Shown: positions 31,570 through 31,814 of the stretch, piece by piece
How the letters are laid out: the number at the start of each line of letters is the position of its first letter
Position numbering within the stretch: the stretch's first letter is position 1
NCBI RefSeq assembly: GCF_900107195.1
Contig: NZ_FNPB01000005.1
Coordinates: forward strand, 62,001-126,000
Direction of reading: 5' to 3'
DNA: 64,000 nucleotides
Source: Halobellus clavatus
GTDB lineage: Archaea > Halobacteriota > Halobacteria > Halobacteriales > Haloferacaceae
Program-made: the position numbers and the translations under genes
Notes under the pieces: model-generated
Databases searched by the model: none
What the model saw: the letters and a program-made list of their open reading frames with translations, nothing else
What the model was told of the DNA's origin: nothing

Positions 31570-31644
31570 GCTCGGTTGGTGTAGTCCGGCCAATCATCTT
31601 GGCCTTTCGAGCCGAGGACCAGGGTTCAAATCCCTGACCGAGCA
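31570..31644 (+). tRNA. tRNA-Glu (TTC)
   Basis: 75 nt. Acceptor GCTCGGT pairs with ACCGAGC; anticodon stem TTGGC/GCCGA with loop CTTTCGA, anticodon TTC; T-arm CAGGG-TTCAAAT-CCCTG; discriminator A. A partial copy of its 3' end lies 75 bp downstream, joined to a palindromic element. Confidence 0.94.
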
Positions 31645-31647
31645 CTC
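31623..31647 (+). repeat. 25-bp direct repeat, copy within tRNA-Glu 3' end
   Basis: Covers the T-loop, acceptor 3' strand, discriminator and three flanking bases of tRNA-Glu; identical to 31722-31746. Confidence 0.9.
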
Positions 31648-31685
31648 TTCTGAGGAGGTCACGACGAAGAAGAGCGCGCAGTGAA

Positions 31686-31733
31686 GGGATTTGAATCAGG
31701 GAGCAGTCTCGCTGCGACCGTGGTTCAAATCCC
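31686..31733 (+). repeat. 48-nt tRNA-arm palindromic element, Glu copy
   Basis: Bounded by the perfect 10-bp inverted repeat GGGATTTGAA / TTCAAATCCC, with an inner GCAG/CTGC pair, so it can fold into a long imperfect hairpin. Its right end is a T-arm that continues into a copy of the tRNA-Glu 3' end. The reverse complement of 44477-44524 is the same sequence with 3 differences in 48. Confidence 0.88.
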
Positions 31734-31746
31734 TGACCGAGCACTC
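31722..31746 (+). repeat. 25-bp direct repeat, downstream copy of tRNA-Glu 3' end
   Basis: Identical to 31623-31647. Its first part is shared with the palindromic element; the rest is specific to tRNA-Glu. The arrangement recalls attachment-site duplications made by integration into tRNA 3' ends. Confidence 0.9.
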
Positions 31747-31814
31747 CTTTCAGTATAACTCACCGAGCGACAGCGCGGTCCTCCACAACCCCTCCGTCTC
31801 TGACACCCAGGACT

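Follow-up and report, generated by a model that had tools for sequence, protein, structure and literature searches.

Haloarchaeal elements are known to integrate at the 3′ ends of tRNA genes, and tRNA fragments lying downstream of such genes are common leftovers of integrative elements (PMC8371274, PMC3119063). The tRNA-targeting integrases have been described (PMC8371274), among them the SNJ2 type, whose elements, likewise restricted to haloarchaea, attach at the 3′ end of the tRNA through a very short site. The MITE, PATE and SMR repeats of Haloquadratum (PMC3119063) and tRNA fragments in archaea (PMC9897764) have also been described; for Haloferax volcanii, 11 tRNA-derived fragments found by Heyer et al. 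are reported to stem from 3′ trailers in all cases but one (as cited in PMC3544259). Among open-licence papers, which were the scope of our search, we found no earlier description of a hairpin unit that stands downstream of a tRNA gene and carries a copy of that same tRNA's 3′ end.

The units reported here share with the attR sites and tRNA fragments of integrative elements a direct repeat of the tRNA 3′ end downstream of an intact gene. Unlike attR repeats, they have no intervening element, their copy begins at T54 behind an inverted T-arm and a core, and they occur at a third to a half of the tRNA genes. Like the MITEs, PATEs and SMR of Haloquadratum (PMC3119063), they are short and non-coding, contain inverted repeats or palindromes and leave no room for a transposase; however, their ends are matched to the tRNA, their targets are tRNA tails only and their direct repeat is a 20-nt tRNA tail. 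They do have 10-bp inverted repeats, but these are tRNA-derived.

Two hairpin units in the window

The window, by which we mean the whole stretch of 64,000 nucleotides analysed, corresponds to G000:C17:62001-126000 of a 3.75-Mb haloarchaeal draft genome. The initial annotation had pointed to a 48-nt palindrome with 10-bp inverted repeats past tRNA-Glu, and this was confirmed: at 31686-31733 the perfect repeats GGGATTTGAA (31686-31695) and TTCAAATCCC (31724-31733) flank a 28-nt core. Behind tRNA-Glu(TTC) the layout is thus a first hairpin (H1), GGGATTTGAA, the core, TTCAAATCCC and the rest of a copy of the gene's own 3′ end. This copy had been taken as 13 bases, but it is actually 20 nt long, running from T54 (T-loop) to position 73, and is followed by the three flank bases CTC. 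The features of this unit and of a second one behind tRNA-Leu(CAA) are as follows.

31570-31644, + strand: tRNA-Glu(TTC), host gene of the first unit (tRNA detection in the window)
31625-31644, + strand: tRNA-Glu tail (T54 to position 73), the segment that is copied (sequence comparison)
31645-31674, + strand: H1, first trailer hairpin, directly after tRNA-Glu (predicted fold)
31686-31695, + strand: inverted T-arm (IR) GGGATTTGAA, complement of the tRNA T-loop and T-stem
31696-31723, + strand: core of family I, TCAGGGAGC-hairpin-GCGACCGTGG, with a covarying terminal stem and facing GA/GA
31686-31733, + strand: H2, the 48-nt palindrome (fold z = -6.2)
31724-31743, + strand: copy of the tRNA-Glu tail (T54-73), copying 31625-31644
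44563-44649, - strand: tRNA-Leu(CAA), host gene of the second unit (Rfam bounds 44565-44648)
44565-44584, - strand: tRNA-Leu tail (T54-73)
44525-44564, - strand: H1 region of the second unit
44477-44524, - strand: H2 of the second unit, 3 changes from the first (fold z = -4.6)
44467-44486, - strand: copy of the tRNA-Leu tail
44444-44466, - strand: duplicated flank TCTCGTGTCCGAACGACAGTGAG behind the second (tRNA-Leu) tail copy

Both copies of H2 fold far better than shuffled sequences, as the z values indicate. The recurrence beside tRNA-Leu with three changes, also claimed at the outset, held: a 44-nt pattern taken from the tRNA-Glu element matches the window only at its own site and, with 3 mismatches, at 44479-44522(-), and it has no match in 100 shuffles (expected by chance, zero). 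At tRNA-Leu(CAA) the duplication runs 23 nt further into the flank beyond the tail copy. A third copy of the 48-nt element adjoins tRNA-Leu(TAA) on a different contig, so the element is neither confined to the first two sites nor without tRNA association elsewhere. H1 without the rest of the unit is present at tRNA-Glu in several congeners.

An Rfam 15 scan of the window gave only tRNAs above the gathering scores, the element itself receiving sub-threshold microRNA matches only. A termination hairpin had been another suggestion; no bacterial-type terminator (a G+C-rich stem with a T run immediately behind it) was found at 31400-31900, in a scan that covers the bacterial type but not archaeal T-run termination. 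H1 and the long cores repeatedly contain hairpins of the form GCGAAC..GTGAGC with facing GA/GA, for example at window 44525-44564, and these resemble palindromes that are common in haloarchaeal intergenic DNA. Elsewhere in the window (18508-18674) two tRNA-Asp(GTC) genes stand in tandem, 20 bp apart, and the same pair occurs in the congener G006.

Distribution among haloarchaea and match to the host tRNA

The family-I core pattern, with two mismatches allowed, matches 24 of 99 relatives, and a reversed control pattern none. A scan of one genome per species (84,980 species) returned 114 loci; titled records exist for 80 of them, and all 80 are haloarchaea or close halophilic relatives. Family I is the commonest core, and its copies lie at tRNAs (27 tRNA species) or at their copied ends. 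Across haloarchaea, the copies are indeed located shortly downstream of tRNA genes and joined to the 3′ end of the tRNA concerned, as had been expected: 141 of 153 distinct family-I copies are found no more than 450 nt downstream of a tRNA on the same strand, mostly 30-59 nt away. Inspection of the 12 copies without a detected tRNA revealed that most follow a tRNA tail fragment; several lie at what look like the right-hand junctions of inserted elements that separate the tRNA from the unit, one comes after a tRNA-Trp missed by ARAGORN, and some belong to arrays cut by contig ends. First units typically begin 21-85 nt past the tRNA with no gene between.

We also carried out a census of nearly all tRNA genes of three genomes, each with 900 bp downstream. 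The last 20 nt of the tRNA recur downstream as a near copy at 14 of 42 genes in this genome (15 of 41 by a stricter comparison) and at 19 of 43 and 22 of 42 in two other haloarchaea, counts that include a few tandem tRNA-Asp genes or partial repeats besides full units. As controls, the tails of other tRNAs turned up at 2-4%, and 20-mers from the 5′ or middle part of the same tRNA gave 0-1 per genome. An inverted T-arm and a core usually stand in front of the tail copies; besides family I (TCAGGGAGC..GCGACCGTGG), the cores include CAGCGAGC..GCGAGTGAGG, a longer CCTGCCAGTCGCGCGCAGC..GCACGTCTGGCTTCGG type and others. In nine non-haloarchaeal genomes, which belong to the same phylum but not to the order, none of 25 sampled tRNAs has a tail copy. 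A typical unit is thus a non-coding segment of 87-156 bp made of the tRNA tail (T54-73), a T-rich stretch, H1, the inverted T-arm and a conserved core; it is placed at the tRNA 3′ end, with the tRNA intact and a second tail copy at the far junction. Units are kept at the same tRNAs across families, with unconserved flanks beyond them.

The copy is matched to the tRNA beside which it stands. Tail copies agree with their own tRNA at 12.4 of 14 positions and with other tRNAs at 7.4, and the inverted arm agrees at 5.62 of 8 positions with its own tRNA and at 4.63 with others, the maximum of 500 permutations being 4.87. Identity is 0.84-1.0 from T54 to position 73 and then falls to 0.57 and lower; it ends at the mature tRNA 3′ end. 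CCA follows the copy in only 2 of 152 cases. In 143 of the 152 a pyrimidine comes directly behind the copy, and the stretch of 8 bases that starts there is rich in T, like the sequence behind the tRNA itself. In many units (e.g. L140, L213, L334 and L363) the T-loop copy repeatedly has one additional base (TTCACAATCC or TTCAACATCC) that would form a bulge in the hairpin stem; this base arose at many different tRNAs.

Hairpin covariation and a possible trailer RNA

Among 40 distinct family-I hairpins, both sides have changed in 12 pairs, and the covariation reaches 0.211; shuffled controls give 0.110 (0 of 500) and slid controls 0.079 or below. Terminal stems of 9 nt show compensatory changes, and in those of 11 nt the facing G.A/A.G is kept and is followed by covariation. 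The length of the terminal stem tracks the host lineage across many tRNAs: all 23 stems are short in Natrialbales, and outside this group (Halorubrum left out) 19 are short and 24 long (p 1.6e-6), as if the cores spread, or co-evolve with a lineage-specific factor.

The covarying hairpin may act as RNA or as folded DNA. As RNA, H1, H2 and the tail copy would be transcribed with the tRNA and constitute a functional structured trailer of the pre-tRNA, in which the tail copy would vie with the true 3′ strand for pairing with the 5′ acceptor strand, or mark a second tRNase Z or termination site; alternatively, the trailer would itself become a small RNA. The structure, the conservation at orthologous tRNAs although the flanks diverge, and the trailer origin reported for all but one of the 11 Haloferax volcanii fragments (Heyer et al., as cited in PMC3544259) make such a trailer a serious rival, and we regard it as quite possible though not probable. 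It is in line with the strong covariation and with the predicted minimum-energy fold of both window copies, in which the tRNA 5′ acceptor strand pairs with the distal tail copy. The end of the copy at 73, with a pyrimidine next and T-rich sequence behind, also agrees with it; however, T-richness and an end at 73 would also result from insertion at the tRNA end. We rejected the idea that the tail copy is selected to pair with the 5′ acceptor strand, as wobble asymmetry is absent and G.U-compatible changes in the acceptor copy are not in excess (20 vs 13, p 0.46). A sense-strand RNA was at first suggested by the wobble bias of the hairpin, but in a structure-based count (15 G.U vs 8 A.C) the bias toward the tRNA-sense strand is weak. 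Also against a functional trailer are its absence from about half or more of the tRNA genes and its turnover within a genus.

Arrays, empty sites and a proposed cassette insertion

The units form tandem arrays of up to 8, of the form tRNA-H1-(H2-tail-H1)n, in which adjacent units often differ in core and in H1. At tRNA-Leu(CAA), congeners have cores I, I-III, III-I, I-III-I, III, a truncated III or nothing, and truncated units, or relics, are common. Integron cassettes likewise form arrays of short units, and their attC sites are folded palindromes in which structure is kept more than sequence and the terminal loop is variable. Tandem arrays of non-identical units are also what we found here; the resemblance is a general one, limited to arrays of short units with folded palindromes; our units have no integron integrase and no cargo and are anchored at tRNA genes. 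No larger, cargo-bearing cassettes were detected, and four long gaps proved to be either tRNA genes in tandem or matches that lack an inverted arm. In the Halorubrum-type tRNA-Leu(CAA) arrays L225, L232 and L243, a 243-261-bp unit contains a 5′-truncated copy of tRNA-Leu that runs from the D-arm to the tail and has a GA-rich hairpin within its variable arm.

Near-identical tandem units also exist, of 86-87 bp in one genome (G030) and 99-100 bp elsewhere. They would be accounted for by tandem duplication made by the host, through slippage or recombination at the tRNA tail with a template-switched inverted arm and homogenisation by gene conversion, in which the units would have neither mobility nor function. 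The duplication of both tail and flank at the tRNA-Leu of the window fits such an origin, and tail-tail recombination would explain clean loss. Nevertheless we think it improbable: the core is not tRNA-derived, is conserved in sequence across haloarchaea and covaries, adjacent units often differ in core and H1, and the insert of about 102 bp at tRNA-Leu(CAG) has an H1 unrelated to the local flank.

This insert lies at the tRNA-Leu(CAG)/L18e site, where among 17 congeners 9 are empty, 4 have the 102-bp unit, 2 have a 123-bp unit with another core and 2 have H1 alone. The empty site reads GCA and then CTCCGAATTCTCTC; in the filled site the 102-bp unit ends in the tail copy and is followed by the same CTCCGAATTCTCTC. 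The tree of the L18e region requires at least 3 presence/absence changes, 2 of them forced by supported branches. The dispersed presence and clean empty sites of MITE-like elements are therefore found at this site.

We next considered remnants of the attachment sites of ordinary tRNA-integrating proviruses or plasmids, which integrate at haloarchaeal tRNA 3′ ends and commonly leave tRNA fragments (PMC8371274, PMC3119063). Two integrated elements are present in the same genome, outside the window: one of ~2.6 kb in tRNA-Gly(GCC) (G000:C17:16121-18771) and one of ~56 kb in tRNA-Thr(GGT) (G000:C19:548922-605083), each with a tyrosine integrase adjoining the tRNA. Their distal repeats (attR) start in the anticodon arm and have neither inverted T-arm nor core, an anatomy on which the ordinary att remnant was rejected as a candidate. 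In addition, the units typically have no integrase-bearing element between themselves and their tRNA as a provirus or plasmid would, and elements with short attachment repeats, where present, appear to lie between tRNA and unit. Virus and plasmid collections contain almost no copy of the core: it occurs in one viral contig and in no phage or plasmid record. A phage or plasmid origin was dismissed, as BLAST with the core gave chance matches only, and a loose palindrome search of viral contigs returned unrelated matches. Attachment-site remnants are thus a very unlikely source of the units. Of the initial interpretation, which is partly supported, a minimal mobile element agrees with presence/absence, mixed arrays and relics, an att-derived element in the ordinary sense lacks support, and a processing hairpin or small-RNA source may still apply. 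In one locus (L234), ~2.3 kb past the unit of tRNA-Arg(TCG), there is a second short tail match, ATGCAGCGCCCA, with H1-like sequence behind it. The tail copy may have served a small element for attachment, and no integrase was recognised there by eye.

We tentatively favour, with a little short of an even chance, the proposal that the units are miniature non-autonomous site-specific integrative elements, 'tRNA-tail cassettes', probably mobilised in trans. The hairpin, composed of inverted T-arm, core and T-loop copy, would represent the recognition site, and a tyrosine recombinase supplied in trans would recombine the 20-bp tail with the tRNA tail. The small cassette would insert with its own tRNA tail, restoring the tRNA, so that the tail copy would be the old tRNA end and the T-rich sequence behind it the old trailer; later recombination between tail copies would duplicate or delete units. 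The recombinase, a circular form and the direction of change are all inferred. Of the models considered, cassette insertion most simply covers the tRNA-matched ends, the stop at 73, the unmatched flanks, the mixed arrays, the relics and the clean empty sites, and it is further favoured by the hairpin covariation and by the terminal-stem length that follows host lineage. Since recombination between tail copies also yields clean empty sites, these sites leave gain unproved. Against cassette insertion, no unit with cargo was found and the core is in a single viral contig and no phage or plasmid record; the conservation at the same tRNAs across families, beside an unconserved flank, also suits a functional RNA, and copies at different tRNAs of one genome have little in common beyond the core. 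It is rather unlikely that the proposal extends to a class-wide set of gene-less cassettes at tRNA tails, with a hairpin formed partly by the inverted T-arm of the target tRNA and a dedicated trans-acting recombinase that inserts, stacks and removes units at most tRNA kinds, repeatedly rewriting mature tRNA ends.

If cassette insertion is true, many haloarchaeal tRNA genes would get their essential 3′ ends from small mobile units. A repeat family would then be tied to a core gene set in an unusual way, and the units would point to a new recombinase. If instead the units act as RNA, they would represent a widespread pre-tRNA trailer element with its own 3′-end decoy. Under either reading, tRNA fragments near haloarchaeal tRNA genes are not automatically traces of provirus integration.
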